A stretch of DNA of 64,000 nucleotides from an uncultured Bacteroidales bacterium (GTDB lineage Bacteria; Bacteroidota; Bacteroidia; Bacteroidales; Paludibacteraceae), in contig CAIUTB010000070.1 in NCBI GenBank assembly GCA_903901975.1, positions 1 through 64,000 on the forward strand, given 5' to 3'. Below are positions 27,714-58,243 of this stretch, piece after piece. The position numbers and the translations under genes are program-made. The notes below the pieces were generated by a model. The model was given only the letters and a program-made list of their open reading frames with translations. It searched no databases and was not told the DNA's origin. Each line of letters starts with the position of its first letter. Position 1 is the first letter of the stretch.

Positions 27714-27721
27714 TAATTTTG
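27714..27721 (+). promoter_or_regulatory. Bacteroidota -7 box for the lipoprotein-protease pair
   Basis: TAATTTTG, an exact TAnnTTTG match. It overlaps a possible TTG start at 27719, so the real start codon must be the ATG at 27782. Confidence 0.6.
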
Positions 27722-27781
27722 CGCCCTTGCCCATCCGTTAATTTGTCAATCAATAATACGACATACTTAATTCTATTTTTT

Positions 27782-29425: not shown

Positions 29426-29445
29426 ACTTAAAAATATCACACTTT

Positions 29446-31569: not shown

Positions 31570-31640
31570 GTTTGCTGAAACAATATTTTAACTCAAAAAT
31601 ATGTTTTACAACAGAAAGACCAAAATATTACAAAAAAACT

Positions 31641-31697
31641 TTTGCTATAATAAAACAAAGCAGTATTTTTGGTTGACCAAATTATTGGTATGCCAAT
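31641..31697 (+). promoter_or_regulatory. susC promoter with overlapping tandem operator
   Basis: A -33 TTTG at 31641-31644 and a -7 box TATTTTTG at 31664-31671 are 19 nt apart. The -7 box runs directly into a palindrome TTTGGTTGACCAAA (31668-31681). A second, imperfect palindrome ATTGGTATGCCAAT (31684-31697) follows with its centre 16 bp downstream. The same composite recurs at 47730 and 58227. The half-site TGGT/ACCA resembles operators of FadR-type GntR regulators (inference). The implied 5' leader of susC is about 205 nt; 31698-31884 holds no gene or other structure I could support. Confidence 0.75.
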
Positions 31698-31884
31698 TAT
31701 TTTGTGAATAATAATTACAATAGCATGATAATCATTTATATACATTAGTTTAGACTGAAAAACACGAACATTTTTTCGATTTCAAAAAATTAAGATACAG
31801 AGATAATAATCAAAATCTCTTAAAATTTCAATTTATTTAATTCAGAATATAAAACTCAAATTCACAATAAAAATTAATACCTAA

Positions 31885-34800
31885 ATGAAAAAAAACAAAA
31901 AAAGCAAACAATTCCTCAGGAACATGATGTGGTTGTTCGCACTATTATGTATGAACACAGCTGCAACATTTGCACAGCTCAAAGTAAACGGAACTGTCAC
32001 TGACAGTAAGAAAGAACCATTGATTGGTGTTAACATCAAAGTAGTCGGGACCAAAACAGGTACAATTACTGATGCTAACGGTAAATTTAGTGTTAGTGTT
32101 ACTGATACTAAAGCATTTCTGGCTTTTTCTTATATCGGCTTTAAACCCGTAGTTCAGGCTGTCGGGAACAGCAAGCAACTCCTTATTGAAATGGAAGAAG
32201 ATAGCAAAACCATGGATGAAGTAGTGGTTGTTGCCTATGGTACTCAACAAAAATCACACTTGACCGGAGCAGTTTCGTCAATAAAAGGAGAAAAGATGGA
32301 TGACCTTCCTGTATCGAGAATCGATCAGGCACTGCAAGGAAAGTTGGCAGGCGTGCAAATTCAAAATGTCGACCCGGAGGCAGGTGAAGCTCCGGTAATC
32401 AGAGTACGTGGTATGGGCTCAATCAGTGCTGTAGTTTCCCCCTTGGTTGTAGTAGATGGTTTTCCTATCTCAGATGGTCTTTCATCGGTAAGTATGGGCG
32501 ACGTTGAATCTATTGAAGTATTAAAGGATGCTGCTTCGGCTGCTATGTATGGTTCTCGTGCAGCTGGGGGTGTAATTTTGGTTACAACGAAAAGTGGTAA
32601 TATTGCCAAACCAAAATACAATTTTAAGATGCTTACCGGATTTCGAACCGTCTTAAAAGTTCCGGAAGTTTTAAACACATCGCAATATACAAAACTCATG
32701 TATGATGAGGCAGCATTGCGTATGCAGGATCCAGCTGTAGATGGAACTTCAGCAACTATGACCTTTAACCAAATAACAAATACTGAAAAGGCATCCTATT
32801 TATTGCAACAAATGTATTTAGATCAACCAACTGATTGGTTTGATCAAGCACTGCGCAATTATGGTATGAATCAAAACTATCAGTTAAGTGCATCAGGCGG
32901 TGATAAAAATATAAAGTATTTCATTTCCGGAAATTATAATAGTGAAGCCGGGGTAATGAGGTACAGCAATTATGACAAGTATAATTTACGTGCAAAAATT
33001 GATATCAATTTATCGAAAGCGGTAACAATAGGCATAAACATTACGCCATCATACAGTCGAAAACAAAATCCGGCGGTTGACTTAACCGATTATATCCGCT
33101 ACCCATCCTGGTTACCGGTGAGGCATAATGCCGCAACAGCTGCTGCAACAGGTAAAATTGCAGGCGACTACGCACAAGCTATGGATTTTACAGGTGTAAT
33201 ATTAAGTGGACCCGGGTATAACAATGAAGTATGGGACTTGACAACAGCAAAGCTTTCGGGTTCGGCAGTTCAAACACCTGTATCGGTAAATGAACGGACC
33301 AGTATTGTAACCGATGATTACCGCATGCAAAGTAATGCGTATATGACGATTAATATCTTACCTGGTTTACAGTTTAAGACCTCTAATGGTGCTTATACGG
33401 CTTATAAAGAATATAATAATAAACAACAAACGAATGCAAAATCGGCATCATCTTTTAATACTTTACAAAGACAAACTACTTTGCAAACGGAATTATTATC
33501 TGAAAATACCTTGAATTTCACCAAAAAAATTGGGAATCACGACATTAGTGCATTGGCTGGATTTACATATCAACAAACAGGAAAGAAATACAACCAGATA
33601 GTTGCCCAGAATTTTTTGGACGATAATATGCTTTCATTTAATTATGCTTCGTCATTAATTACTGATGACCCTTATGCTGCAACTCCCGTTAGTGGTATAA
33701 CGTCATTCTATTATACAGAAGCTATAGAATCCTTTATCGGAAGGTTGAACTATGCTTACATGGGCAAATATTTATTTTCGGCAAGTTTACGTTCCGATGG
33801 TAGTTCCAAATTTGCTGACGGGCATAAATGGGGAACTTTCCCTGCCGGCTCTATTGGCTGGAGAGCATCTGAAGAAAAATTACTGAAACAAATAGACTGG
33901 TTATCAAATTTAAAAGTCCGTGCAAGTTTTGGATTAACAGGAAATAACAACATTCCTCAATACTCGTATGCAAATAAAATCAATCTGAATAACTATGTTT
34001 TAGGTGCAGGGAATGGAACATCAGTTACCGGAATGTCTTCGAATGATACTTTTCTTGGAAATCCGGATATTACCTGGGAACAAACTGAAGAAGGAAATTA
34101 CGGTATTGACTTAGGATTATTTAATAGCCGACTAAATGTTACTGTTGAATATTATAATTCAAATACTATACAGTTATTACTTCAACAACCTGCTATGTAT
34201 ATTACCGGTCATCAAACATCCTGGCAAAATATAGGAAAAGTAAATAATCAGGGCGTTGAAATAGAGCTTTCAACCACAAACATTGATTCCAAAGGATTTA
34301 CCTGGAAAACTACCGGTAATATTTCAACAAATAAAAACACTTTATTGAATTATGGCGATAATACCTATATAGATAATTTTGGTGAAAAAACCGAAGTGTA
34401 TCGTGCTATTGTTGGTCAACCATCCATTCAGTATTATGGGTTTAAAAGTGACGGCGTTTATACTACTTTTACAGAAGTTGCTGCTGCTTTGGCAAAAACC
34501 GATGCCAATGGAGTCCTTTTCAATTACGGTTATTTTGTTCCAAAAATTGGGGCACTTAAAGTTGTTAATTTGAATGGTGATAATATTATAGATGGTAATG
34601 ACCGTATGGTACTTGGTAAACCTACCCCTGATTTTACCTGGGGTATTACGAACACTTTCACATACAAAGATTTCGATTTGAGTTTTATGTTTCAGGGAGT
34701 ACAGGGATTGAAAATTGTGGATGGAAATATGAAATACGATGAAAATCTAAGAAGTAATGTAGCTTATATTAAAAACAGATTTGTAAGTCCGATGTTTCCG

Positions 34801-35142
34801 GGCGATGGCAAAACAGTTTATGCAGCAAACACTTCCGGCTCATACCTTATGTTGACCGATTATGCAATCGAAGATGGTTCCTATGCATCCATGAGAGACT
34901 TAACTTTTGGATATAAAGTACCTCTCAAAATAGTAAAGTCTGTAGGTTTAAGTCAATTCAGAATTTATTTTTCAGGACAAAACCTCCTTTACTTTATGGC
35001 TCCCGGCTTTAAAGGCGTAAATCCTGAAGCACGTAGAACTAGCGGTCCGTACTCAAGCGCATTTCCTTTGGTTGACGGATATCAACGCGGTGTCTTTCCT
35101 CTAAATAGGACCTATACATTTGGTGTTGACATTAACTTTTAA
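31885..35142 (+). CDS. susC: SusC/RagA-type TonB-linked outer-membrane glycan transporter
   Basis: A 1085-residue outer-membrane barrel that imports oligosaccharides with its SusD partner, powered by TonB. It has an N-terminal signal peptide ending near TFAQ, a carboxypeptidase-regulatory-like domain (about 30-115; VNGTVTDSKKEPLIGVNIKV), the TonB box/plug region (MDEVVVVAYGTQ, ALQGKLAGVQIQN, VRGMGSIS, VVDGFPI, EVLKDAASAAMYGSRAAGGV) and a long barrel. The SusC signature and length are typical. It is the first gene of the locus, 57 bp before susD, driven by a promoter with a palindromic operator. The ligand is inferred from the neighbours: alginate and/or a sulfated uronate glycan. Confidence 0.95.
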   Translation: MKKNKKSKQFLRNMMWLFALLCMNTAATFAQLKVNGTVTDSKKEPLIGVNIKVVGTKTGTITDANGKFSVSVTDTKAFLAFSYIGFKPVVQAVGNSKQLLIEMEEDSKTMDEVVVVAYGTQQKSHLTGAVSSIKGEKMDDLPVSRIDQALQGKLAGVQIQNVDPEAGEAPVIRVRGMGSISAVVSPLVVVDGFPISDGLSSVSMGDVESIEVLKDAASAAMYGSRAAGGVILVTTKSGNIAKPKYNFKMLTGFRTVLKVPEVLNTSQYTKLMYDEAALRMQDPAVDGTSATMTFNQITNTEKASYLLQQMYLDQPTDWFDQALRNYGMNQNYQLSASGGDKNIKYFISGNYNSEAGVMRYSNYDKYNLRAKIDINLSKAVTIGINITPSYSRKQNPAVDLTDYIRYPSWLPVRHNAATAAATGKIAGDYAQAMDFTGVILSGPGYNNEVWDLTTAKLSGSAVQTPVSVNERTSIVTDDYRMQSNAYMTINILPGLQFKTSNGAYTAYKEYNNKQQTNAKSASSFNTLQRQTTLQTELLSENTLNFTKKIGNHDISALAGFTYQQTGKKYNQIVAQNFLDDNMLSFNYASSLITDDPYAATPVSGITSFYYTEAIESFIGRLNYAYMGKYLFSASLRSDGSSKFADGHKWGTFPAGSIGWRASEEKLLKQIDWLSNLKVRASFGLTGNNNIPQYSYANKINLNNYVLGAGNGTSVTGMSSNDTFLGNPDITWEQTEEGNYGIDLGLFNSRLNVTVEYYNSNTIQLLLQQPAMYITGHQTSWQNIGKVNNQGVEIELSTTNIDSKGFTWKTTGNISTNKNTLLNYGDNTYIDNFGEKTEVYRAIVGQPSIQYYGFKSDGVYTTFTEVAAALAKTDANGVLFNYGYFVPKIGALKVVNLNGDNIIDGNDRMVLGKPTPDFTWGITNTFTYKDFDLSFMFQGVQGLKIVDGNMKYDENLRSNVAYIKNRFVSPMFPGDGKTVYAANTSGSYLMLTDYAIEDGSYASMRDLTFGYKVPLKIVKSVGLSQFRIYFSGQNLLYFMAPGFKGVNPEARRTSGPYSSAFPLVDGYQRGVFPLNRTYTFGVDINF

Positions 35143-35199
35143 CAATTAATATAACTAGTTTATATCCAACAAAAAAATAACTCCAAATAAAAAATAGAT

Positions 35200-36747
35200 A
35201 TGAAAAACAAAAATATAATATTAGCCTGGTTTGTAATCCTTATTTTTTCAGGATGTGATTCATTAATCACCGACAAACCCGAATCAATGCTTATCCAAGA
35301 CAACTTTTTCACAACACAAACTCATATAAGCGAAGGTGTTGTCGGATGTTACAAAGGCATGTGTAAGACTATTAATGAGGAATGGAAGTTTACAGAAATG
35401 AGAAGCGACAATTCATGTGTGGCCTATACCAGTACCAGTTCCGGCGACCGTTCGGATTATTGTTTTATGAAGTTTTTTAATCCTCCTACCAGCCTACCTA
35501 TTATGAGGGATTATTGGTATGTGCTTTTTCAGAATATTTCCAACGTTAATGCAATTTTACCATCAGTAGCTGCGGGGTCAACTTATGTATCTTCTGAATC
35601 ATTAAGAGCTCAGTACGAAGCAGAATTATTATTTATACGCGCTTATCATTATTACACCTTAGTAAATCTTTGGGGCGATATGTTCAAAGTTACGAAAGTT
35701 ATCGGTCCGTTAGATGCAAAGACGATAGTACGTTCGCCGGCAACTGAAATTTATGATGAGATTATTTTCCCCGATTTAATTAAAGCTGCTGATCAACTTC
35801 CTGCTACTTATTCTGCTGCTGAGGCTGGTCGAATCACGAAATGGGCTGCAAAAGCCATGTTGGCTAAAGCATATATGCAAAAAGGTGATTTACAAGATAT
35901 TCCAAAGGCACAAACATTATTAGAAGAAGTAATTGGGACTACTCAATATTGCAATTTAGTTACCACCAAAGGAACAGCAGTCAGTGCATATGCCAATGTA
36001 TTTAGCGTTGATAATGAAATGAATCCGGAAATTATTTTTGCAATACGTTTTAGCAGGTCTAACTCTCTTGGATCTTCATTCTGGGGAACTTTTGCTCCTG
36101 ATGGTTCAGCAGCTAACATTATCAAAGCAGGAACGCCGGTAGGTGACAACAACCCGACTCCTGAGTTTATGTCTAAGTTCAGTGACCCAACCGACACACG
36201 AAAAGATGCATGTTTCAGAGTCTGGGATAAAAATGCAAGTACTCATGAACAATATATCTCTAAATATATAGATCCGAGTATGGTTATTGCACTTCAGGGT
36301 GAAAATGACTGGCCTGTTATCCGTTATTCTGATTTATTGTTGCTTCATGCTGAAATTTTGGCCCAAAGTGCTAATCCGAATGATGCATTAGCTGACGTAA
36401 ATAAAGTCAGAGTAAGAGCAGGCGTTAAACCATACCTTAATTTTGCTTCAAAAACGGAAGCCTTGGATTCGGTTTATCAGGAACGTAGAATAGAATTGGC
36501 TTTTGAAAATCACCGTTGGTTCGATTTATTACGAATGGGAAAAGCATACGATGACCCAAACAAAGCATTATCTATTTTGACAACCGCGATTTTTACAACT
36601 GACTATTTATTACTGTATGGTCAATTTAACAAAATTGCACCTCCTGTTCAATCAAGTTTTACCATCGAGCGTATGTTATTGCCAATTCCTCAACAGGAAA
36701 TTGATACAAATAACAAGATGGTCATTCCACAAAATCCAGGTTATTAA
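35200..36747 (+). CDS. susD: SusD/RagB-type surface glycan-binding lipoprotein
   Basis: A 515-residue surface lipoprotein (lipobox IFSGC, Cys19) that caps the SusC channel and captures oligosaccharide. Typical SusD features are visible: the N-terminal SusD-like region (DNFFTTQTHISEGVVGCYKGM), TPR-like helices (AELLFIRAYHYYTLVNLWGD, GRITKWAAKAMLAKAYMQKGD), and the C-terminal signature WPVIRYSDLLLLHAEILAQ, VRVRAGVKPY, YQERRIELAFENHRWFDLLR. The protein ends PQNPGY, as many SusD proteins do. It is co-transcribed with susC and the following lipoprotein. Confidence 0.95.
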   Translation: MKNKNIILAWFVILIFSGCDSLITDKPESMLIQDNFFTTQTHISEGVVGCYKGMCKTINEEWKFTEMRSDNSCVAYTSTSSGDRSDYCFMKFFNPPTSLPIMRDYWYVLFQNISNVNAILPSVAAGSTYVSSESLRAQYEAELLFIRAYHYYTLVNLWGDMFKVTKVIGPLDAKTIVRSPATEIYDEIIFPDLIKAADQLPATYSAAEAGRITKWAAKAMLAKAYMQKGDLQDIPKAQTLLEEVIGTTQYCNLVTTKGTAVSAYANVFSVDNEMNPEIIFAIRFSRSNSLGSSFWGTFAPDGSAANIIKAGTPVGDNNPTPEFMSKFSDPTDTRKDACFRVWDKNASTHEQYISKYIDPSMVIALQGENDWPVIRYSDLLLLHAEILAQSANPNDALADVNKVRVRAGVKPYLNFASKTEALDSVYQERRIELAFENHRWFDLLRMGKAYDDPNKALSILTTAIFTTDYLLLYGQFNKIAPPVQSSFTIERMLLPIPQQEIDTNNKMVIPQNPGY

Positions 36748-36766
36748 TTCAAAAAAATAGTTTATT

Positions 36767-38134
36767 ATGAAATATATAGAAAAATCGGTACAGTTAATCA
36801 CACTGTCAATACTAATGGTGCTTGCTGCTGGACTTAACTCCTGTAATATTGATGAACCGGCTCAAAAAGCAACTCCAAAAACGTTTGAAGAGTACAAAAC
36901 CCAATTGCGAAAGTTTGTTGATTCTGAAAAATTATTTGTCGACAGTTGCAAGGTTGGCTATAATATTAATGAATTTGCTCCCATTTCGGGCACATCTTTT
37001 CTTGCTTATCAAGCTGCTTACCTTAAAGATTTACATAAGGTTGATTCAGTATTAATTAAAGCTGATTCTGCTGTTCAAAAACTCCCTGTTGTTACTATTG
37101 CTGATTTGGTAATGGCTAATGCATATTTAGGGCAAATCATTGCAGGAACCAGCTCATCGAGTAACGGGAAAAATTTTAGAGGAAAAATAAATATTTCCGA
37201 CAGACGTATCTTAAATGACTCCATTACATCCTGTTTAAATCTTAATAGTTTAGTAACTGTAGGTACAGGTGGAGTAGCTGGTGTTGACAATGTGATTTCT
37301 GAAGACAAAACCAAGTTTTTAACAGCAATTTCGCTGGCAATTGCGACTCGTGATGCTACTACTACAATTGACAGGCAGGTAAAAGATGCATTAATACCCT
37401 TAAAAGCAGCTCGTTTAGCTTTTTTGGCAGCTAGAATCCCTTCTGATTTACCAACTTTTATTGCTAATTCAAGTGCCTTTATTACGGCTCAACTTGCTTT
37501 AGTAAATAACGCTACAATCGGTTATAATGTCAATGAATACCTTGCAACGCTTAGAAACAATTACCTGAAAGTGCTGAACACAGCCCAAACGACAGTAGGA
37601 ACTACAGGTGCTACCTGGGTGCAGGTTTCTGCTGCCATGACTTCGCTGACAACTCCACGTTCAGCTTTTATTCCGAATGTTGCCGATAAAAGAACCTTAA
37701 ATGACACCATAGTAGCAGATTCAACTCTAAATACAAAACTTAGTGTAGGTACATTAAATGGAAATATTTCGCTTGCTGTTCAGACGAATTTAAAATCTGC
37801 GCTCATAACCGCTACTGCTACTCGCGAGAATGCAAATTCAACTGATGGTCAGGTTAAATCCGGTACTTATGCACTGACATTGTATAAAAAAGCTGTTGTA
37901 GCATCAATACCTTTGCACTTTGCTATTAATACTTGCACCACCTTAAACACTGCAACATTAGTCGGAACTACTACCGGAAAAGTACCTCAATCTGCAAAAA
38001 CAGCTTTTACAACTGCAATAACATCTGCAACAACTATTCGGGATGCAAAAGCAACTACTGAGGCTCAAATGATTGATGCAGGAGTACAATTAGAAAAGGC
38101 AAGAGTCTTATTTTTAGCGTTTATCATCAAATAA
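36767..38134 (+). CDS. Surface-type lipoprotein of helical (FIVAR-like) repeats, third PUL gene
   Basis: A 455-residue lipoprotein (lipobox GLNSC, Cys26) in the SusE/surface-glycan-binding position, 19 bp after susD. The rest is Ala/Thr/Leu-rich and repetitive. A unit of about 75-80 residues appears three times (starting near SDRRILNDSI, ADKRTLNDTI and FAINTCTTLN), each ending with the pattern TRdA..T..QV.....L..A...F. A second motif, GYNxNEY, occurs twice. The layout resembles FIVAR-like three-helix domains rather than the beta-sandwich SusE/F type. I infer a glycan-binding spacer or stalk protein on the cell surface. No catalytic residues are recognised. Confidence 0.75.
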   Translation: MKYIEKSVQLITLSILMVLAAGLNSCNIDEPAQKATPKTFEEYKTQLRKFVDSEKLFVDSCKVGYNINEFAPISGTSFLAYQAAYLKDLHKVDSVLIKADSAVQKLPVVTIADLVMANAYLGQIIAGTSSSSNGKNFRGKINISDRRILNDSITSCLNLNSLVTVGTGGVAGVDNVISEDKTKFLTAISLAIATRDATTTIDRQVKDALIPLKAARLAFLAARIPSDLPTFIANSSAFITAQLALVNNATIGYNVNEYLATLRNNYLKVLNTAQTTVGTTGATWVQVSAAMTSLTTPRSAFIPNVADKRTLNDTIVADSTLNTKLSVGTLNGNISLAVQTNLKSALITATATRENANSTDGQVKSGTYALTLYKKAVVASIPLHFAINTCTTLNTATLVGTTTGKVPQSAKTAFTTAITSATTIRDAKATTEAQMIDAGVQLEKARVLFLAFIIK

Positions 38135-38142
38135 CAACTAAT

Positions 38143-38178
38143 AAATCCACTGTTTGATACTCTATCAACAGTGGATTT
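38143..38178 (+). terminator. Terminator-like hairpin after the SusC/SusD/lipoprotein genes
   Basis: Perfect 12-bp arms (AAATCCACTGTT at 38143-38154 and its complement at 38167-38178), lengthened by GATA/TATC inside the loop. The downstream T-run is poor (TTTAGTTATT). It may only partly terminate and so reduce expression of the enzymes relative to SusC/SusD. Confidence 0.6.
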
Positions 38179-38249
38179 AGTTATTCCAGAAAACTTGTCG
38201 ATTAGGATTTTGGCAAGTATGTTAGCATCTAATTAATTCAAATTTTTCA

Positions 38250-40643: not shown

Positions 40644-40670
40644 TTTTCAATCACTTACAAATTATTTTTT

Positions 40671-41903: not shown

Positions 41904-41906
41904 ACG

Positions 41907-41931
41907 ACCCCTAACCCCTAAAGGGGAACTA
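41907..41931. repeat. Dispersed CCCCTAACCCCT/AGGGG repeat
   Basis: ACCCCTAACCCCTAAAGGGG followed by AACTA, placed just after the stop codon of the PL5/PL38-type gene. Same family as the copy at 20111-20131. Confidence 0.65.
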
Positions 41932-42025
41932 AATTAGTTCCGTCTAGTATTGTTATGTTAATATGTTAAATTGATATTTCCAATCTGTAATGCTGTTAAG
42001 TAATAATTTTTCAAATATTTCAAAA

Positions 42026-43216: not shown

Positions 43217-43235
43217 AAAACACTAACAAACTTTC

Positions 43236-43261
43236 GATTTTCTAGCCTTGGCTAGAAAATC
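43236..43261. repeat. Perfect inverted repeat upstream of the GH2 gene
   Basis: Arms GATTTTCTAGCC (43236-43247) and its exact complement (43250-43261) are separated by only 2 nt. It ends 14 nt before the GH2 ATG. There is no T-run and no similarity to the TGGTyGACCA operators. It could be a dispersed repeat, a processing hairpin or a second type of operator. Confidence 0.75.
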
Positions 43262-43275
43262 ATAAAACCCGAATA

Positions 43276-45951: not shown

Positions 45952-45973
45952 CCAAATTGTAATTTCAAGCATT

Positions 45974-47647: not shown

Positions 47648-47729
47648 GTTGTTTTTTGAAAAATCTATGTTTTACAGCATGTTTCAGTAAAAAGCCATGA
47701 AATTATTTTTTTATTATTGATTCTTGTAT

Positions 47730-47762
47730 TACTTTTGGTCGACCAATGCACTGGTCGACCAA
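47730..47762 (+). promoter_or_regulatory. Promoter with tandem palindromic operators, second transcription unit
   Basis: The -7 box TACTTTTG (47730-47737) overlaps palindrome TTGGTCGACCAA (47735-47746). A second palindrome CTGGTCGACCAA (47751-47762) follows with its centre exactly 16 bp downstream, the same spacing as in front of susC. The -33 element is weak, which fits regulation. It lies about 150 nt upstream of the PL6 start at 47891. Confidence 0.78.
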
Positions 47763-47890
47763 ATTTTTACAGATATTAAAAGAAAATCTGGCATACATAC
47801 TAATTTTTTGTTTCATTTCAATTGCTTCTAATGCTTACAAATACATTAACCAATTCAACCTTTGGTATTTTTCAGAGTCTAACAATAAAA

Positions 47891-49408
47891 ATGAGACAAG
47901 TACTTATCGTTTATTTTTTCTTTATCTCAATAGTTGCTTCGCTGGCAGCTGAGAACCAAAATCAGGAAATTTTGGTTTCTACTATTGCTGAGTTAAATTC
48001 GGCAATTTTACAGGCAAAACCAGGAGCTAGAATAATTCTCAAAGATGGAATTTGGAAAAACACAGCTATAAATTTTAATTCAACAGCTACCGTATCAGCT
48101 TATATAACTTTGTGTGCTCAGACTCCGGGGAAAGTAATTTTAAGTGGAAATTCGACTTTGATTTTTTCAGCACCTTATTTGGTGGTTGACGGATTTGTGT
48201 TTCGAAATGGTTCGATTGATGGTGGCTCAGTAATAACCTTTAATTCTGATAATTGCAGACTTAGTAATACTGTTATTAAAGATTTCAATCCGTCAAATTT
48301 TCAAACAGCATATTATTGGGTATATTTTCAGGGAAGTTATAACCGAATGGATCATTGCCTTTTCAAAGGAAAAAGTAATATGAACCCGGTGGTACAAAAT
48401 TTCGAAGAAAATGCTCGTTACAATAAGGTAGACAGCTGTATTGTAAAGGATATTCCTTATGTAAAACATGCCAACGGTCGTGAAATTTTCCGAATTTTTG
48501 GTTACGGTCATGCCGACCAACCGGGTGACGACGGTGCTTATTTTACTATCGAATATAATCTTTTTGACCATGCCGATGGAGAAGGTACTGAAATTATTTC
48601 CCTCAAATCGAATAACAACATTGTTCGTTACAATACAGTCATCGCTTCAAGAGGTGGCTTGGTTGGCAGACGTGGAAAAAACAATATCTTTGAAGGAAAC
48701 TTTATTTTTGGTCAGGGTCAGGCTGGTACAACCGGCATTCGGGTTGCCGGCAGCAATCATCGGGTTATCAATAACTATATTTCCGATGTAACAGAAGATG
48801 GGCTGAGACTGATAACGGGTGAATATTATGAAAAAAGTCTGACATCGAATTTTGCACCCAAAAAGAAAGAACTGCCAAAGTATTTGCAGGTAAAGGATGG
48901 TTATTTTGCTCATAACACTATTGTAAACTGTACTGGAAACGGCATCGATATTGGATTTGCGTATGAAAATCACTGGCCAAATTTGCAAATGATATTACTC
49001 CCTGAAAATAACAAATTTGTAAACAATGTTGTGTTTAATTGCACTGGCAATTCAATCATCGAAGCGGTTCAGGATAAGAATCCACCCTTAGATGTATTTT
49101 CATTCAAACCTAATATTTTTGAAGGAAATATTAGTTGGGGCAGCAAAACGAGCGGTTTGGGAGCAACGAAAGGGATTAAAATGATAAATCCAAAATTTAC
49201 ATTTTCGAAAGACGGATTTCTTCGTCCGGATAAAAACAGTCCGCTTATCAATGGGGGTGTAAATTCAGATCTTACAACGGATATGGATGGTCAGAAAAGA
49301 GATGATTTGAAAGATATAGGCGCTGACGAATTAGCTGACTCACCTATAATACATCATCCTTTAAACTCGAAAGAAATAGGTCCAAAATGGCTGATAATCA
49401 AGAAATAA
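47891..49408 (+). CDS. Single-domain PL6 family lyase
   Basis: A 505-residue exported beta-helix lyase with signal peptide (MRQVLIVYFFFISIVASLAA) and no T9SS tail. The catalytic Lys239 (EIISLKSNNN) and Arg260 (GLVGRRGKNN) are in place, but the His that follows Arg in the first PL6 protein is Arg261 here, hinting at altered specificity. The C-terminal segment (LINGGVNSDLTTDMDGQKRDDLKDIGADE) is typical of PL6. I chose the ATG at 47891 for the signal peptide; the ATG at 47822 would add 23 residues ahead of it. It opens the second transcription unit and is followed 15 bp later by two related sulfatases. Confidence 0.88.
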   Translation: MRQVLIVYFFFISIVASLAAENQNQEILVSTIAELNSAILQAKPGARIILKDGIWKNTAINFNSTATVSAYITLCAQTPGKVILSGNSTLIFSAPYLVVDGFVFRNGSIDGGSVITFNSDNCRLSNTVIKDFNPSNFQTAYYWVYFQGSYNRMDHCLFKGKSNMNPVVQNFEENARYNKVDSCIVKDIPYVKHANGREIFRIFGYGHADQPGDDGAYFTIEYNLFDHADGEGTEIISLKSNNNIVRYNTVIASRGGLVGRRGKNNIFEGNFIFGQGQAGTTGIRVAGSNHRVINNYISDVTEDGLRLITGEYYEKSLTSNFAPKKKELPKYLQVKDGYFAHNTIVNCTGNGIDIGFAYENHWPNLQMILLPENNKFVNNVVFNCTGNSIIEAVQDKNPPLDVFSFKPNIFEGNISWGSKTSGLGATKGIKMINPKFTFSKDGFLRPDKNSPLINGGVNSDLTTDMDGQKRDDLKDIGADELADSPIIHHPLNSKEIGPKWLIIKK

Positions 49409-49423
49409 AATAAAAATGTATCC

Positions 49424-50995: not shown

Positions 50996-51019
50996 GATAA
51001 ATTTAATTGAAATCAGAAA

Positions 51020-52603
51020 ATGAAAAGATTAATTAAAAACAGTAGTTTAAACCTTGCTTTGTTAGGTTTGGCTACTATGCCAACAATGGCACAAAAAACG
51101 GAAACAAAGAAAACACGTCCTAATGTATTATTTATTGCCGTTGACGATTTAAAACCTTTAATTGCCGCTTATGGTGATAAAATGGCTATTACTCCGGGAA
51201 TGGATCGTCTGGCAAATGAAGGTATGGCTTTCCAGAACTGTTATGTTCAGCAGGCTATCAGTGGTGCTACCCGTGCCAGCTGTCTTACAGGAATGCGTCC
51301 CGACAAGACAAAAGTGTGGGATTTGATAACGAATTTCCGTCAGGTAAACACTAATGCAGTTAGTTTGCCTGAGTATTTCATTAAAAACGGTTACGAAACA
51401 GCAGCCGTTGGAAAAATTTATCATGTAGGTAGTGCAGGTCCGGGACATGATGCGCCATCCTGGTCAACTCCCTGGATTAATGATAAAGCTGAAACATACG
51501 TGAATTTCGTACCTGAAAAAGGCAAAAAAGGTCCGGCAGTTGAATGTGCCGATGTGCCTGATAATACCTATCAGGATGGTGTTTGTGCTGAAATTGGGAT
51601 CAAGTTACTAAACCAATTGAAAGGAAATGGAAAACCATTTTTCCTTGCAGTAGGTTTCCACAAGCCACATTTACCATTTGTTGCACCCAAAAAATACTGG
51701 GATTTATACAAACGTGATCAATTCAAAATTGCTGAATTTCAACATAAAGCTGCCGGAAGCCCGGATTTAGCTTATCATGTTTCGGGTGAGTTGAAAAGCT
51801 ATACCGACATTCCACAGTTTGACAGTTATTCGGAGAAAGATTTGGATCATTTGCCTGTTGATAAGCAAAAAGAACTGATTCATGGTTATTACGCAGCTGC
51901 ATCGTATATGGATGCTCAACTGCTAAAAGTGCTGAATGAATTAGACCGACTAAAATTGAGCGATAACACCATTGTGATACTTTGGGGCGACCACGGTTGG
52001 CATTTAGGCGATCACGGGCTTTGGAATAAACACACCGATTTTGAACAAGCAACACATGCTTGTATGCTAATGCGTGTAAAAGGAATGAAACCCGGCATTA
52101 AACCACTAACACAATGCGAATTTGTGGACATTTTCCCAACTTTGTGCGAACTGGCCGGAATTCCAACTCCAAAATACCTGGACGGATTAAGCCTTGTTCC
52201 TGCCATGAAAAATCCGGCTGCTGAATTAAGAGAATATGCATTCAGTCAGTATCCACGCAAGGATGCCATGGGTTACACCATTCGCACCAAACGTTTCCGT
52301 TACACTGAATGGATTGGCGACCTTTATTCAGCTGAATTTCCTTACAGTCAGGCAAAAATCGTTGCGAGCGAAATGTATGATTACGAAAAAGATCCATTGG
52401 AAACAAAAAGTCTGATTGGTGATAAAGCATACAGCAAAGAAGAAGTGATGATGAAGCAACTATTCACCGAAGCAATGAACCGTGAACATGTTCAATATGC
52501 AAATTATTCAAAATTAGCAGATTGGCACGAACCTATCAGTACAACTCCTGAAAAAAAAGGTAAAAAAATCAAGAAAGACCGGAAAAACGGTGATGTTGAA
52601 TAG
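51020..52603 (+). CDS. Serine-type sulfatase, iduronate-2-sulfatase-like (tandem copy B)
   Basis: A 527-residue exported sulfatase, paralogue of the preceding gene with the same S-x-A-x-R active site (SGATRASCLTG, Ser81), IAVDDLKPLIAAYGD and WGDHGWHLGDHGLW. Differences from copy A are scattered (for example APSWSTPW for AASWSIPF), so both look functional. The C-terminus is longer and more basic (KKGKKIKKDRKNGDVE). Two near-identical sulfatases in a row may desulfate different positions or chain lengths of the same glycan. It is followed after 8 bp by the DUF6250 gene. Confidence 0.92.
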   Translation: MKRLIKNSSLNLALLGLATMPTMAQKTETKKTRPNVLFIAVDDLKPLIAAYGDKMAITPGMDRLANEGMAFQNCYVQQAISGATRASCLTGMRPDKTKVWDLITNFRQVNTNAVSLPEYFIKNGYETAAVGKIYHVGSAGPGHDAPSWSTPWINDKAETYVNFVPEKGKKGPAVECADVPDNTYQDGVCAEIGIKLLNQLKGNGKPFFLAVGFHKPHLPFVAPKKYWDLYKRDQFKIAEFQHKAAGSPDLAYHVSGELKSYTDIPQFDSYSEKDLDHLPVDKQKELIHGYYAAASYMDAQLLKVLNELDRLKLSDNTIVILWGDHGWHLGDHGLWNKHTDFEQATHACMLMRVKGMKPGIKPLTQCEFVDIFPTLCELAGIPTPKYLDGLSLVPAMKNPAAELREYAFSQYPRKDAMGYTIRTKRFRYTEWIGDLYSAEFPYSQAKIVASEMYDYEKDPLETKSLIGDKAYSKEEVMMKQLFTEAMNREHVQYANYSKLADWHEPISTTPEKKGKKIKKDRKNGDVE

Positions 52604-52611
52604 AAAATTGA

Positions 52612-53286
52612 ATGAAAAAAATTCTGATCATACTATGTGTTTTTAGTAGTTTGCTTGCATTTTCTCAAAAGGAGAATGCAGGTAAGCTCCTGTATTCTGA
52701 AAATTTCAATAAAGATTGGACGAACTGGATTGTTGAATTTGAACAAGTTGAAAGTTCAACTATTGGACTGATTGACAACAAATTAGATATTTCTTCGTCA
52801 AAAGGAGCAACAGTTTGGTTTAATCATAAATTGTCAGGAAATATTATGATTACCTACAATGCAACATTAGTCGATGCGGGTGGGAAAAATGACAGAGTAT
52901 CTGACCTGAATGCTTTTTGGATGGCCTCAGAACCTCAAAAGGAAAATCCATTTGGACGAAATGGCCATTTTGAAGCGTACGACAATTTGAATTTATACTA
53001 CGCCGGAGTTGGCGGGCATTACAACAAGTACACACGCTTTAGAAAATATAACAGCAATGGCGAAAAGCCGGTATTGAAAGAGTACAGCGATGCTCCTCAT
53101 TTATTGATTGGGAATAAAACCTACACAATCAAAATTGTGCTGAATAACGGCCTGATTCAATATTATTTAAACGATGAACTGTATTGGGAACTAAAAGACG
53201 AAACACCTTACAAAGAAGGTTATTTCGGTTTCAGAACCACAATCAGTCACCAACAATTCTCAAATTTCAAGGTTTATCAATTATAA
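52612..53286 (+). CDS. DUF6250 family exported protein (concanavalin-like fold)
   Basis: A 224-residue exported protein with signal peptide (IILCVFSSLLAFSQ). Segments NFNKDWTNWIVEFE, ATVWFNHKLSGNIMITYN, RVSDLNAFWMAS and GYFGFRTTISHQQFSNFKVYQL match the DUF6250/DUF1961-like pattern of glycan-locus proteins with a jelly-roll (lectin-like) fold. Function is not established: it could be a lyase, a hydrolase or a binding protein. It sits between two sulfatases, 8 bp after one and 11 bp before the next, so it is part of the desulfation and uronate-degradation block. No T9SS tail. Confidence 0.75.
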   Translation: MKKILIILCVFSSLLAFSQKENAGKLLYSENFNKDWTNWIVEFEQVESSTIGLIDNKLDISSSKGATVWFNHKLSGNIMITYNATLVDAGGKNDRVSDLNAFWMASEPQKENPFGRNGHFEAYDNLNLYYAGVGGHYNKYTRFRKYNSNGEKPVLKEYSDAPHLLIGNKTYTIKIVLNNGLIQYYLNDELYWELKDETPYKEGYFGFRTTISHQQFSNFKVYQL

Positions 53287-53297
53287 AATTTAAAACA

Positions 53298-54653
53298 ATG
53301 AAAAACAATGAATTTATGAAAGCTGCCGGTATAGTTGCGGCTGGAATGTTAGGAATAAACAGTCCGATTAATGCACAAGCTAAAGAACCTAAGAAACCAA
53401 ATATCATTTTTATTTTGGCTGACGATTTGGGTTATCCTGAAATAAGTTGCAATGGTGCGGACAGTTACAAAACACCAAATATTGATAAACTGGCGGCTCA
53501 GGGACTACGTTTCACTCATGCGTATGCCAACCCGTTGAGTGGCCCTTCACGCGCAGTTCTTCTTACCGGAAGATATGGTTTTCGTACCGGTGCAACCAAT
53601 CAGGATGCCTGTTCAGAAGTGTTTTCTCCTTCTGAAAAAATGCTACCAACTTACTTAAAATCTGCTGGTTATGCATCGACTGCTATTGGTAAATGGGGGC
53701 AATTACCTCTCGATCCATCTGATTTTGGGTTTGACGAATATCTTCGCTTTTTCGGAAGTGGAGTGTATTGGACAGAGCCGGGGAAAAAACAAAATTATCG
53801 TGTAAACGGAACTGATTTAGTATTAAAAGAAAATGAGTATATGCCGGATTTAATGCATAAGCAAATGGTAGAATTCATATCTAAGAATCAAAACAAACCA
53901 TTTTTTGCCTATTATCCATTGTCACACGTTCACGGTGAAATTACTCGAACACCTGACAGTAAGAGCAACAAAGATTATTACGACGACAATATTAGCTACA
54001 TGGACAAATTGGTGGGTGAATTACGCACCGAACTTGATAGACTGAAACTAAGCGATAATACTATTTTGATATTCTTCAGCGATAACGGAACTGCCGGAGG
54101 TAAAGCTGACAGAGCCACAATTGGAGGTCGAAGATTGATTGGACAAAAAGGATCGATGGAAGAAGGTGGCAGTCTTGAACCACTGATTGTTTACTGGCCG
54201 GGGGTCACTCCAAAAGGGAAAGTATGTACTGATTTGATAAGTTCATCCGATTTTCTGCAGACATTTGCTGAAATAGCCGGTGCTGAATTACCAAAAGATG
54301 TTGTATTGGACGGTCAGAGTTTCAATGCTCAGATTCATGGTCAGAAAGGATCACCACGGACTTCACTTTTCGTGCAACTTGCGAATAATTATTGGGTTCG
54401 GAGTCAGGGATGGAAACTTAATCAGGACGGCGAATTGTTTGATATGAGTAAAGCTCCTTTTGAAGAAATTCTTGTTCCGGCCGACACAAAGATTCCTGCT
54501 GCAATAGCTGCACGAGCTAGTCTTCAGTCCGAACTTGACCGTTTGAATCCGAAGGCCGGTTATATCGATCATGGTGATGGAACAGGTCGTCATGGAAATA
54601 AAGCAAAAAATAAAGCAAAAAAAGAAGCTAAAAAGAAACAGGCAGTTGAATAA
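53298..54653 (+). CDS. Serine-type arylsulfatase-like sulfatase
   Basis: A 451-residue exported S1 sulfatase of a different subfamily from the other three. N-terminal signal (MKAAGIVAAGMLGINSPINAQ), ILADDLGYPEISCNGAD with the metal-binding Asp pair, the active-site motif SGPSRAVLLTGRYGFRTG (Ser81, canonical S-x-P-x-R), and FFSDNGTAGG for the second metal site. The C-terminus is strongly basic (Lys/Ala-rich). The start at 53298 avoids overlap with the DUF6250 gene; an ATG at 53184 lies inside that gene and would add 38 atypical residues ahead of the signal. Target sulfate position is unknown. Confidence 0.92.
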   Translation: MKNNEFMKAAGIVAAGMLGINSPINAQAKEPKKPNIIFILADDLGYPEISCNGADSYKTPNIDKLAAQGLRFTHAYANPLSGPSRAVLLTGRYGFRTGATNQDACSEVFSPSEKMLPTYLKSAGYASTAIGKWGQLPLDPSDFGFDEYLRFFGSGVYWTEPGKKQNYRVNGTDLVLKENEYMPDLMHKQMVEFISKNQNKPFFAYYPLSHVHGEITRTPDSKSNKDYYDDNISYMDKLVGELRTELDRLKLSDNTILIFFSDNGTAGGKADRATIGGRRLIGQKGSMEEGGSLEPLIVYWPGVTPKGKVCTDLISSSDFLQTFAEIAGAELPKDVVLDGQSFNAQIHGQKGSPRTSLFVQLANNYWVRSQGWKLNQDGELFDMSKAPFEEILVPADTKIPAAIAARASLQSELDRLNPKAGYIDHGDGTGRHGNKAKNKAKKEAKKKQAVE

Positions 54654-54686
54654 TTTTCTGAATACAAGCAATAATAAACATGCTAA

Positions 54687-56474
54687 ATGGCTAAGAAAAT
54701 AAGTATAATTTCACTGATAATATATTTTTTTTTGCAAAGCGTCAATTGCCAGACAACAACATTAGTTTCGATTGATGCTAATGGGAAACTGAGCTATAAA
54801 GCGGATGTAAAAGGAATGGTGATTCCCGACTTTAGTGGTGTTGGTTATCAGAATTCTGAGAAGCCAATTCCGGTTGTGCCTGTGGTAAAAACCCTAACAG
54901 CGGTAGTTGGTGATAATGTCGCCAATGTCCAGGCAGCCATAAACGAAGTTGCAGCAATGCCTTTGCTAAATGGAATTCGGGGTGCTATACTTTTCAAAGC
55001 CGGAACGTATGAAATGAGCAGCACAATAAATGTAACATCAAGTGGCATTGTGTTGCGTGGCGAAGGACAAACTACTGTTTTTAAGGCAACTGGAATCGTG
55101 CAGTACGATTTAATTCATATTATCGGAGCATCAGGTAAGGCTGATTTAACATCTACTCAAAAACAAGTGACTGATGCGTTTGTTCCTGTTGGCACTAAAT
55201 CAGTAACGGTTCAAAGCGGTCATACTTTTGCCGTAGGCGATTGGGTGCATTTCCGTCGTGAACCCAATACTGCCTGGATTCATATGCTTGGCATGGATAC
55301 GCTTTCGCATATTGACCCATTGGCAACAGACTGGACGGCTAGTTCGTATAAAATTAGTTTCGAGCGTAAAATTACCGATGTTCAGGGTAATGTACTTACC
55401 TTCGATGCACCGGTAATGGATATTATTGACCCGGTTTACGCTAATGCTTTTGTGCTGAAATTTACTTCAGCGCGAATTTCAAATTGTGCTGTTGAGAATC
55501 TGAAAATGACTTCGAGTTTCCTTTCTTCTACTGACGAACTACACGGTTGGAATGCCATTTATATGGATAATGTGGAAAACTGCTGGGTGAAAAAAGTAAT
55601 AGCCTATTCCTTCGGCTATTCTTGCGTAAATGTGAATGATGGTGCTTCTTTCGTAACGGTTGACAGTTGCTCCATGTTGGATGGAATTTCCCAAATCACG
55701 GGTGGACGCCGATATTCGTTTAATTTAAATGCACAACGTTCTCTTGTTCAAAATTGCACAACCAGAAATGGACGTCACGATTTTGTGGATGGTAGTCGCA
55801 CACCTGGTCCAAATGTATTTTATAACTGTACAGCCACCTTGGAACATGCTGATATTGGTCCACATCATCGATGGTCGACAGGCATTTTGATTGATAATGT
55901 CAGCACCGACGGTCAAATTCGGGTTCAGGACCGTGCTGATTCTGGTTCAGGACACGGATGGTCGGGTGCACAAATCATGTTTTGGAACTGTACATCGCCC
56001 GATTTTGTCGTGCAAGACCCACCATCATACCATTGTAACTGGGCAATTGGGTGCATAGGGCCAATTACCAATGTGGGTCAGTGGACAACAAATCCGCTGG
56101 GAATTGTAGAATCGAAAGGAACAAAAATCGTTGCTATTCCAAGTTTATTTAAAGCTCAGCTGGCTGAACGATTGAAAAATCTGGCTACTGCTGTTGTAAT
56201 TCCCAAAGTTTCAGCTATTGACTTTCAGGTAATTCCAAATCCGGCTACAAATCAAATTCAAACAAGAATATTATTGGAGCAGCCTTCAAAAATTCAATTA
56301 ACTCTTTGTGATGTAAATGGTAAATTAATCAAATCACTACTTTCAAATCACCAGATTGAAATTGGAATGAATGTTTTGAATTTCAACTTTACTGATATTA
56401 AATCAGGAGTATATTTAGTAAAACTTTCAAACGGAAATTTTCAGAAGTCTACAAAACTAATTATACAGAACTAA
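54687..56474 (+). CDS. Pectate-lyase-superfamily beta-helix protein with T9SS tail
   Basis: A 595-residue secreted protein. A signal peptide (LIIYFFLQSVNCQ) is followed by an N-terminal strand region (PDFSGVGYQNSEKPIPVVPV), the start of a Pectate_lyase_3-like right-handed beta-helix (ANVQAAINEVAAMP, GIRGAILFKAGTYEM, GIVLRGEG), and a long helix with many NC repeats. The last 75 or so residues are a type A T9SS sorting domain (IPNPATNQIQ ... GVYLVKLSNG), so it should be exported to the surface. A lyase or epimerase-like activity is likely, but I know no characterised close relative. The partial gene at 63314 is a paralogue. It is the first T9SS-tagged gene of the locus. Confidence 0.8.
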   Translation: MAKKISIISLIIYFFLQSVNCQTTTLVSIDANGKLSYKADVKGMVIPDFSGVGYQNSEKPIPVVPVVKTLTAVVGDNVANVQAAINEVAAMPLLNGIRGAILFKAGTYEMSSTINVTSSGIVLRGEGQTTVFKATGIVQYDLIHIIGASGKADLTSTQKQVTDAFVPVGTKSVTVQSGHTFAVGDWVHFRREPNTAWIHMLGMDTLSHIDPLATDWTASSYKISFERKITDVQGNVLTFDAPVMDIIDPVYANAFVLKFTSARISNCAVENLKMTSSFLSSTDELHGWNAIYMDNVENCWVKKVIAYSFGYSCVNVNDGASFVTVDSCSMLDGISQITGGRRYSFNLNAQRSLVQNCTTRNGRHDFVDGSRTPGPNVFYNCTATLEHADIGPHHRWSTGILIDNVSTDGQIRVQDRADSGSGHGWSGAQIMFWNCTSPDFVVQDPPSYHCNWAIGCIGPITNVGQWTTNPLGIVESKGTKIVAIPSLFKAQLAERLKNLATAVVIPKVSAIDFQVIPNPATNQIQTRILLEQPSKIQLTLCDVNGKLIKSLLSNHQIEIGMNVLNFNFTDIKSGVYLVKLSNGNFQKSTKLIIQN

Positions 56475-56477
56475 CAC

Positions 56478-58166
56478 ATGAAAAACTGGTCCAAAACTCA
56501 TCATACTAGGATTGTTTTTATTGCACTCATATGTTTGATTGTAACCAATACAGAAGCTGCTACCATTAATGTCAGCACGCTTAATGCATTACAAACTGCT
56601 GTAACCAACTCAACATCCGGAGATATTATCAATCTGGCAAACGGACATTACAGTAACTGCAACCTAACAATTTCAAAATCAAATATAATAGTTCAGGCAG
56701 CAACCCCGGGTGGTGTTTTTTTGGATGGGACAAGTATAATTAGCATTTCAGGAAATAACAATAGCTTTGGGGGCTTTCAGTTTACAGCAAATGTTACGGC
56801 AAGCGGCACCAATACAATTGCAGTTAATGGAAATTCAAATTCAATTACCCAACTGAATTTCAATGGTTATTCTGCCGACCATTTCCTCTATATAACTGGT
56901 CAATATAATGTGGTTAGCTATTGTAATTTTCAAAACAAACTTGCCGTAATGACAGCCAAAGCGGGTACCGGTGATATGGTACAAATTATTCCAAATGCAA
57001 CAAATCCCGTTTACACTACTATTCGATACTGCTCATTCCAGCACATGCCGGGCATGGGTGGCGATTATGGTAATGAGTGTATCAGAATTGGCAACAGCAC
57101 ACTTTCTACATATATATCCCGAACAGTGGTTGAATATTGCTATTTTGAGGATACTGGTTTGGGTGACAGCGAGGCAATCTCTGTCAAATCCAGAGAAAAC
57201 ATCTTGCGTTACAATACGATGAAAAACAATCCCGATGCAATGTTTTGCTTCAGAAATGGAGACAATAATGTTGCTTACAGTAACTTCTTTATAAATTCAG
57301 GTGGAATAAGAGCAAAAGAGGCCAATAATATTTTTTGTTATAACAACTATTTTGAAAAATCGGGTCTTACCGGCACTATGAATGCTGTAACCTATATTTA
57401 TGATACATCTAGTTCAACGCATGTATTGGATAATATTAATTTCTTACATAATACCTTTGTCGATTGTGGTAATATTGATTTTGGTGGCGTAGGTGCAACC
57501 AATGGCACCTGGGCAAACAATCTTTTTAAAAAATCGGGAACAATTTTCACAAACCCCAATGCCGGAACAAGCTTTTCAGGAAATATTTATAGTGGAACAT
57601 TAGGAATTTCAATTCCAACGGGCATGAGTTCAGCAGACCCACAACTTGCCCTGAATGCTTATGGATATTACGGTTTAACTGCTACAAGTCCGGCAATTGC
57701 TACAGCAAGCAATGATTACCCGGCCTTAATAACTATCCCCGGAATTGATACCTTATTGTTGGATATAAAAGGTCAAAACAGACCTGTTTCAAGAATTTTA
57801 AAAGATGTAGGTTGTGATCAGTTTAATGCAACAGCTACAGTCATAAATCATCCTATGAAACTGTCGGATGTTGGCCCTTCGTATCTTCAAACATCAACCG
57901 GAATTGAAACTCCTAAAGAAAATTTGAATCTAAAGGTTAATTTAGTTGCTAAATCTTTGATTGTGAATTATATTTTGGCTCAGATTTCAAAAGTCAATCT
58001 TTCAATTTTCAGCATATCAGGGTCTCTGGTTAAAACAATAAACTTGAGTGAAAATGAAAGTCAACAACAATCTATCGATATTTCTAATCTACAACACGGT
58101 GTATATCTGATTCGAATAAATGCTGATAATTCCACTGAAACTATAAGATTTATTATTTGGAATTAG
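56478..58166 (+). CDS. PL6 family alginate lyase-like protein with T9SS-like tail
   Basis: A 562-residue secreted beta-helix lyase, 3 bp after the previous gene. The signal peptide (IVFIALICLIVTNTEAAT) leads into the PL6 helix (about 28-470; AVTNSTSGDIINLANGHY). The catalytic Lys237 (AISVKSREN) and Arg259 (FCFRNGDNN) are visible; Asn follows Arg where the first PL6 protein has His. The C-terminal 85 residues have the T9SS fold pattern (LSIFSISGSLVKTINL ... GVYLIRINADN) but lack the usual NP motif at its start. It is a close paralogue of the next PL6 gene. Probably cell-surface or extracellular and endo-acting. Confidence 0.88.
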   Translation: MKNWSKTHHTRIVFIALICLIVTNTEAATINVSTLNALQTAVTNSTSGDIINLANGHYSNCNLTISKSNIIVQAATPGGVFLDGTSIISISGNNNSFGGFQFTANVTASGTNTIAVNGNSNSITQLNFNGYSADHFLYITGQYNVVSYCNFQNKLAVMTAKAGTGDMVQIIPNATNPVYTTIRYCSFQHMPGMGGDYGNECIRIGNSTLSTYISRTVVEYCYFEDTGLGDSEAISVKSRENILRYNTMKNNPDAMFCFRNGDNNVAYSNFFINSGGIRAKEANNIFCYNNYFEKSGLTGTMNAVTYIYDTSSSTHVLDNINFLHNTFVDCGNIDFGGVGATNGTWANNLFKKSGTIFTNPNAGTSFSGNIYSGTLGISIPTGMSSADPQLALNAYGYYGLTATSPAIATASNDYPALITIPGIDTLLLDIKGQNRPVSRILKDVGCDQFNATATVINHPMKLSDVGPSYLQTSTGIETPKENLNLKVNLVAKSLIVNYILAQISKVNLSIFSISGSLVKTINLSENESQQQSIDISNLQHGVYLIRINADNSTETIRFIIWN

Positions 58167-58226
58167 GTTTCACTGATTAAAATTGCCATTATATTTATAT
58201 AAACTTTTATTTTAATAAGAAATCAC

Positions 58227-58243
58227 TAACTTTGGTTGACCAA
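58227..58243 (+). promoter_or_regulatory. Promoter with palindromic operator, third transcription unit
   Basis: The -7 box TAACTTTG (58227-58234) overlaps palindrome TTGGTTGACCAA (58232-58243), the same composite as at 31664 and 47730. No second palindrome at the 16-bp spacing is found here. It lies 37 nt upstream of the PL6 start at 58281. Confidence 0.75.

Follow-up and report, generated by a model that had tools for sequence, protein, structure and literature searches.

A 64,000-nucleotide stretch (the window; bases 1-64000 of contig C70) from the genome of an uncultured Bacteroidales bacterium of the Paludibacteraceae (the source genome; 3.97 Mb, 170 contigs) contains three promoters in which a palindromic operator is fused to the -7 box, upstream of susC and of two polysaccharide lyase family 6 (PL6) genes. 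The best explanation of these sites, and a likely one, is an AusR-type regulon with a two-input promoter, in which a GntR/FCD repressor is combined with a Cur-type activator. According to the passages cited, alginate catabolism in Zobellia galactanivorans is repressed by AusR, a protein of the GntR family (PMC8073546, PMC7874173, PMC8286568), and carbohydrate use in Bacteroides is regulated by Cur (BT4338), which belongs to the Crp family (PMC6989115, PMC10294740).

Fused operators in the source genome

The motif TAnnTTTGGTYGACCAA matched the window exactly at three places, all on the forward strand (Table 1), and nowhere else. In 100 dinucleotide shuffles of the window, the control used for the window motifs, the mean number of exact matches was 0.00. 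At two of the three sites, a second palindrome follows with its centre 16.0 bp downstream of the first; at the 58227 site, neither a second palindrome nor a Cur-type box was found. By family matches, the genes behind the sites encode a SusC/RagA protein and two Chondroitinas_B (PL6-type) proteins. The three sites, the second palindrome 16 bp downstream at two of them and the identity of the genes had all been proposed in a first-pass annotation of the window and were confirmed. The core palindrome TTGGTYGACCAA was only mildly enriched at up to two mismatches (23 window matches versus a shuffle mean of 13.7, with at least 23 in 3 of the 100 shuffles), and therefore the strict form alone is striking. 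The double operator at 47734-47763 also reads as a terminator-like hairpin.

Genome-wide, TANNTTTGGTYRACCAA occurred at eight exact places, compared with 0 in the reversed control. Two near-exact sites from looser searches, TACTTTTGGTGTACCAA with a second copy and TACTTTTGGTCGACCAT with two further palindromes, bring the set to ten promoters, eight of them chosen by the operator alone. The number of operator copies per promoter was one, two or, on C60, three. The short-chain dehydrogenase/reductase (SDR) encoded behind kduI scored over the cut-off of a gluconate-5-dehydrogenase model and under the KduD model cut-offs, and the PfkB kinase of C96 reached no NCBIfam cut-off; both are therefore named by likeness alone. 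The annotation had defined three co-regulated units: the shared operator was upheld, but the regulon is wider than these three. The annotation had also pointed to occurrence of the motif at many unrelated promoters as evidence against its proposal; what the genome contains is the eight exact sites, each before a fitting gene.

The looser palindrome TTGGTnnACCAA was found at 16 places in the source genome versus 8 in the reversed control, and 11 of the 16 lie in promoters of the regulon. Two of the remaining places are intragenic (C43 and C55), and three stand at promoters without TA at -5 and were left uncounted. At one of the latter (L248, G000:C125, 3513-3524), a perfect TTGGTCGACCAA is located 26 bp before the gene of a 522-aa secreted-looking protein, which is a possible further member of the regulon as judged from this site.

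The GntR/FCD regulator and its co-occurrence with the motif

In line with the annotation, which had placed a FadR-type GntR regulator beyond the window, such a gene was found on contig C75 (7194-7910). It encodes 238 aa with matches over cut-off to PF00392 (GntR HTH) and PF07729 (FCD), and it stands behind its own fused operator. When the AusR-type protein of Zobellia uliginosa DSM 2061 was used as the query, the source genome gave one match at E <= 1e-5 (39% identity, E 6.8e-45), and a profile of the family regulators gave one match at E <= 1e-50 in the Z. uliginosa genome; the C75 regulator and the Z. uliginosa protein were each other's best match. In a tree of 18 of the 22 family regulators, 28 of the 79 named loci described below and 3 class-level proteins, all 49 of the 49 AusR-like rows fell on one side of 5 other FCD proteins with a support of 100/100, three very long paralogs of eight having been dropped. 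A first tree, in which a Zobellia paralog of branch length 10 was placed among the Paludibacteraceae rows, was blurred because the very long paralog rows were included. By these tests, the C75 protein is classified by its sequence as a member of the AusR-type group. The residues Asp152, His156, His199 and His221, which we take to be the metal-site positions of the FCD domain, were invariant in 15/15 and 19/19 aligned rows; alignment A1 took in 15 of the 22 family regulator proteins.

Among 150 genomes of the family, the regulator (called at E <= 1e-20) was present in 22, the motif in 16 and both in 14. The motif was thus found in 14 of the 22 genomes with the regulator versus 2 of the 128 others (Fisher P = 1.9e-12). 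Within the source genus, it was present in 11/11 genomes with the regulator and in 0/2 without it. The two genomes carrying the motif without the regulator (G024 and G043) each have it at a single place, which does not face a pathway gene.

In the 14 genomes with both, the motif stands at promoters of fitting genes. The 48 strand-matches correspond to 45 promoter regions, since three of them (G075, G079 and G094) repeat a promoter already counted, as a second reading or copy, and all are at regulator, susC-like, PL6, kduI, kdgK-like or associated genes. The genes behind them, part of which were scanned against Pfam and the rest named by N-terminal likeness, are kdgK-like (13), susC-like (9), kduI (8), PL6 (7), the regulator (4), SASA esterase (4), and a kdgF-like cupin, a sulfatase and an FN3 secreted protein (1 each). 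Of the 48, two point away from the gene; they lie in the G079 and G094 esterase promoters. In one relative (L015; G144:C5:20816-21502), the regulator match has one in-frame TAA, and two exact operators persist in the genome.

The fusion extends beyond the family. In 79 named loci picked by the regulator alone and mostly non-Bacteroidales, TA..TTTGGT..ACCAA occurred 52 times in 40 loci, and three control patterns gave 0. At the class level, 11 of 12 regulator genomes have the pattern TAnnTTTGGTnnACCAA; of its 22 matches, 15 share a contig with the regulator and stand no more than about 25 kb from it. In flavobacteria, susC promoters have two or three operator copies, mostly 13 bp apart, of which the first is fused to the -7 box. 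Of 244 palindromes counted by strand in the 79 named loci, 70 have TA at -5 (baseline mean 0.113, highest baseline offset 0.193; P = 2.6e-4). TA at -3 was raised too (0.27; TATATTTGG), and counted by loci, -5 and -3 tie at 47.

The Cur-type box and a proposed two-input promoter

The cited text gives the Crp/BT4338 (Cur) consensus as wwwTATGTTnTAnAACATAwww (PMC6989115; PMC3878776) and describes direct activation by BT4338 of fusA2 (PMC6989115). In B. thetaiotaomicron, fusA2 is the strongest target of BT4338. Boxes were scored here by the fixed positions matched, of 14, and distances to the operator were taken from centre to centre. A box fitting TATGTTnTAnAACATA at at least 12/14 positions was present at 67 or 68 bp in 7 of the 10 source-genome promoters and in 0 of 2,000 shuffle sets; among the eight promoters chosen by the operator alone, five have a Cur-type box at this distance. 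The annotation had made no mention of the two boxes in the window (Table 1). The fusA2-like gene of the source genome has a Cur-type box as well; the protein is a fragment scoring 832.6 bits against a whole-protein cut-off of 1000. Three genes in the source genome encode HTH_Crp_2 proteins.

Upstream of the fused operators in the family loci (57 strand-counted sites), boxes of at least 12/14 stood at 67 or 68 bp in 17 cases, at 51 or 52 bp in 5, at 17 bp in 2 and at 70 bp in 1. The distances of 67 and 52 bp differ by 15 bp, which is no whole number of helical turns. In the 14 genomes, the box was found at susC-like promoters (7/9 at 67 bp and 1 at 52 bp), PL6 promoter regions (5/6), kduI (5/8 at 51-52 bp, at least 11/14 positions), the esterase (2/2) and the regulator (1/4), and at 0/13 kdgK-like promoters. 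At the kduI promoters L039-L042, L046, L047 and L012, the box, where present, is mostly 51-52 bp from the operator. In the 79 named loci, no box of at least 12/14 was found upstream of the 70 fused sites.

A composite of box and operator with a gap of 32-60 (29 gaps allowed) was searched in 393 Bacteroidales genomes. It was found at five places in two genomes, all with gap 51, and nowhere in the reversed control. Four places are in the source genome and one is in G545, a member of another Bacteroidales family in which three promoters have boxes of 11-12/14 at 67 bp. Since the regulator is present in 12 of the 393 genomes, the exact composite is absent from most genomes with the regulator.

From the observed sites, regulator gene, spacing and distribution, we infer binding, the direction of repression, the effector, activation and the transcription starts as follows. 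The three window sites would be operators of the AusR-type GntR/FCD repressor encoded on C75. Because TTGGTnnACCAA has its first bases in common with the TTTG of the -7 box, a dimer bound to this operator would lie over the core promoter and keep RNA polymerase out; blocking of the core promoter, as proposed in the annotation, fits what was found. The bound protein would occupy the -7 box and the start region, and a second operator copy 16 bp downstream would strengthen repression. Lyases would release unsaturated uronates, and a product of the route from uronate to 2-keto-3-deoxygluconate (KDG), such as 4-deoxy-5-hexoseulose uronate, KDG or a similar compound, would bind the FCD domain. The effector-bound repressor would then free the promoter, so that transport, lyases, downstream enzymes and the regulator itself are switched on. 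Repression lifted by a uronate breakdown product is what is described for AusR. At most of the promoters, a Cur (BT4338)-type activator of the Crp family would sit 67-68 bp upstream from the centre of the operator, which is about -68 if transcription uses the -7 box, and would work when preferred sugars run out. The logic would be that of inducer present AND carbon limitation.

Several observations weigh against this explanation. By sequence alone, the Cur-type boxes of the window were not significant (2 versus a mean of 0.87, with at least 2 in 19 of the 100 shuffles), and genome-wide at up to two mismatches, 62 matches were counted versus 44 in the control. The boxes are weak by sequence alone; the case for them depends on spacing. 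Two of the ten source-genome promoters came from the looser searches, which saw the operator or the Cur box. The source-genome kduI has Cur-type matches of 12/14 at 70 bp and 11/14 at 52 bp, and the PL6b and kdgK promoters have no Cur-type box. The spacers between box and operator in the source genome share 48% identity versus 34% when shuffled, and the equal spacing may therefore partly reflect shared ancestry. A strong own box was sought at the three Crp-type genes; the best reached 11/14, and none of the genes was assigned as Cur. On the repressor side, the exact motif is absent in 8 of the 22 family genomes with the regulator (six g33 genomes, G026 and G058), and G182 has the regulator without the exact motif as well. 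The class-level background of TAnnTTTGGTnnACCAA is sizeable (22 matches versus 7 in the reversed control of the 12 genomes), and G114 has 0 matches versus 8 in the reversed control. The C75 regulator gene lies distant from any susC and outside a polysaccharide utilization locus (PUL). It adjoins a susC-like gene in the relatives G055, G075, G079 and G105, and location inside an alginate PUL was taken as a usual rather than a defining feature of the AusR-type group. In the g33 genomes (L026-L030 and L032), the regulator is about 50% identical and the exact operator was not found; the operator preference may have changed in this group.

The near-background genome-wide count, the likeness of the spacers and the failure to assign a Cur gene would also fit a GntR repressor whose upstream box is no Cur site but some other conserved element of the promoter or a remnant of promoter duplication. 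We consider this unlikely, since the box at 67-68 bp precedes genes of differing kinds, in more than one genus and in a second Bacteroidales family, its conservation sits in the box and not in the spacer, and the published BT4338 consensus is met at up to 14/14 positions (PMC6989115, passages cited). The kdgK promoters lack the box in 13/13 genomes, and it is therefore not required for the promoter as such. Some FadR-family proteins both activate and repress, and the GntR/FCD regulator could accordingly be an activator or act both ways. This is very improbable, because every exact site has the operator lying across the -7 box and the expected start region, the position of a repressor, and because the cited passages describe AusR as a repressor (PMC8073546, PMC7874173, PMC8286568).

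Even less probable is a function of the palindromes in RNA, as terminator or attenuator hairpins. The palindromes at 47734-47763 do pair with each other (12 pairs, then a run of T's) and are among the terminator-like matches, but such matches in the region were at background (11 versus 11.7 in shuffles), the single sites and the asymmetric second copies do not form this hairpin, and regulator co-occurrence and the -7 phasing would be left unexplained. On account of the background-level matches and of a hairpin that the other sites do not share, this reading was dropped. Chance or a composition effect in AT-rich promoters, favored by the weak two-mismatch counts only, has practically no probability left given 0 exact matches in the 100 shuffles and in the reversed source genome and 0 matches of the three control patterns over the 79 loci.

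For the AusR-type regulon with two inputs, a further generalization is slightly favored, namely a portable unit consisting of an operator welded into the -7 box and a Cur box 67-68 bp upstream, set before dispersed uptake and depolymerisation genes in a Bacteroidales group, with the gene of the cytoplasmic KDG-kinase-like enzyme having the operator only. If this is true, the sigma factor and the repressor would read the same bases, and global carbon control would be exerted on the costly outer steps while pathway control is exerted on all.

The polysaccharide locus and known systems

Table 1. Regulatory sites and genes of the locus (positions without a contig are those of the window)
Feature	Position	Strand	Remarks
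-7 box fused to operator, susC promoter, TATTTTTGGTTGACCAA	31664..31680	+	exact match; C70:31664, before susC
Second operator copy TTGGTATGCCAA	31685..31696	+	centre 16.0 bp downstream of first palindrome
-7 box fused to operator, PL6 promoter, TACTTTTGGTCGACCAA	47730..47746	+	exact match; C70:47730, before PL6 gene
Second operator copy CTGGTCGACCAA	47751..47762	+	centre 16.0 bp downstream of first palindrome
-7 box fused to operator, second PL6 promoter, TAACTTTGGTTGACCAA	58227..58243	+	exact match; C70:58227, before PL6 gene
Cur-type box TATGTTTTACAACAGA upstream of susC	31600..31615	+	13/14 positions; 67.0 bp from operator centre
Cur-type box TATGTTTTACAGCATG upstream of PL6 gene	47666..47681	+	12/14 positions; 67.0 bp from operator centre
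Exact fused site	C70:68459		before secreted FN3 protein
Exact fused site	C75:7004		before regulator gene
Exact fused site	C79:15631	-	before sulfatase
Exact fused site	C96:60377		before PfkB kinase resembling KDG kinases
Exact fused site	C144:14432		before kduI (NCBIfam NF002091 over cut-off), then SDR gene
Near-exact site TACTTTTGGTGTACCAA	C79:16980		second copy 16 bp on; before secreted protein
Near-exact site TACTTTTGGTCGACCAT	C60		two further palindromes (three in all); before secreted protein
Uncounted TTGGTnnACCAA promoter places	C96:71167, C107:9975, C125:3513		without TA at -5
SusC/RagA outer-membrane transporter	31885..35142	+	NCBIfam TIGR04056, 824 bits vs cut-off 368
SusD-like lipoprotein	35200..36747	+	position behind susC; NCBIfam NanU/SusD matches under their cut-offs
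PL6-type lyase	47822..49408	+	PF14592 E 1.2e-51; closest solved chain 7o79, poly(beta-D-mannuronate) lyase, E 1.7e-120
PL6-like protein with type IX secretion system (T9SS) C-terminal sorting domain	58281..60050	+	PF14592 E 8.2e-23; PF18962

For the first PL6 protein, Met 47891 is a more probable start than TTG 47822. The second has weak matches in the PDB to alginate lyase and chondroitinase B. The region 38250-63308 encodes PL6, Alginate_lyase (PF05426), Alginate_lyase2 (PF08787), GH88-like, GH2 and four sulfatase-type proteins, and from this gene content the substrate of the locus may therefore include a sulfated uronic-acid polymer besides alginate. Two neighbouring paralogous genes for trypsin-like proteases are located upstream of the polysaccharide locus (27719-31086).

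The system resembles AusR in several respects. The regulator has GntR and FCD domains and belongs to the same family and side of the tree as the Z. uliginosa homologue; the regulon holds alginate lyases, SusC and genes of the KDG route; and the Zobellia susC promoter has the same fusion of operator and -7 box. The one to three operator copies per promoter correspond to the single, double or triple AusR operators at alginate promoters in the cited text (PMC7874173). The Z. uliginosa regulator is surrounded by susC, susD, heparinase-II/III-type lyase, SDR, major facilitator superfamily (MFS) and PfkB genes (10 of 14 open reading frames scanned), and AusR of Zobellia is described as sitting in such a locus (PMC8073546). 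The system differs from AusR in an identity of about 38-39%, in its Bacteroidales host and in a regulator encoded outside a PUL; second copies are 16 bp apart instead of mostly 13, a Cur-type box stands at a fixed distance, and kduI, a sulfatase and secreted FN3 proteins are included in the regulon. The AusR work of Dudek et al. 2020 (NAR gkaa533) may already describe this overlap with the -7 box.

The enterobacterial UxuR/ExuR proteins, which are FadR-family uronate regulators, share the GntR and FCD fold, operators resembling TTGGTnnACCAA and a role in uronate catabolism. The C75 regulator differs from them in scoring 57 and 53 bits against NCBIfam model cut-offs of 396 and 442.

As in Cur targets, the published consensus is met at 12-14 of 14 positions at most of the promoters here (PMC6989115, passages cited). 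Cur-type boxes occurring together with local regulators are described for the araR, xylR and fucR operons in the cited text (PMC3878776). A local regulator with a Cur box is thus already known in kind, and what appears to be new is the fixed pairing of an AusR-type operator with a Cur-type box: here, one spacing to the operator of the local repressor recurs across a dispersed regulon. In the portions of the literature searched, nothing joining AusR operators with Cur was found, which is no proof of absence.

Little is known about how Bacteroidota join polymer-specific and global carbon control at PUL promoters. The fusion of operator and -7 box offers a definite mechanism of repression, and the fixed Cur spacing predicts helical phasing and AND logic. 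A search pattern derived from the fused motif finds uronate regulons and their -7 boxes in unannotated genomes. AusR-type control would thereby be extended from marine flavobacteria to Paludibacter and other Bacteroidales.

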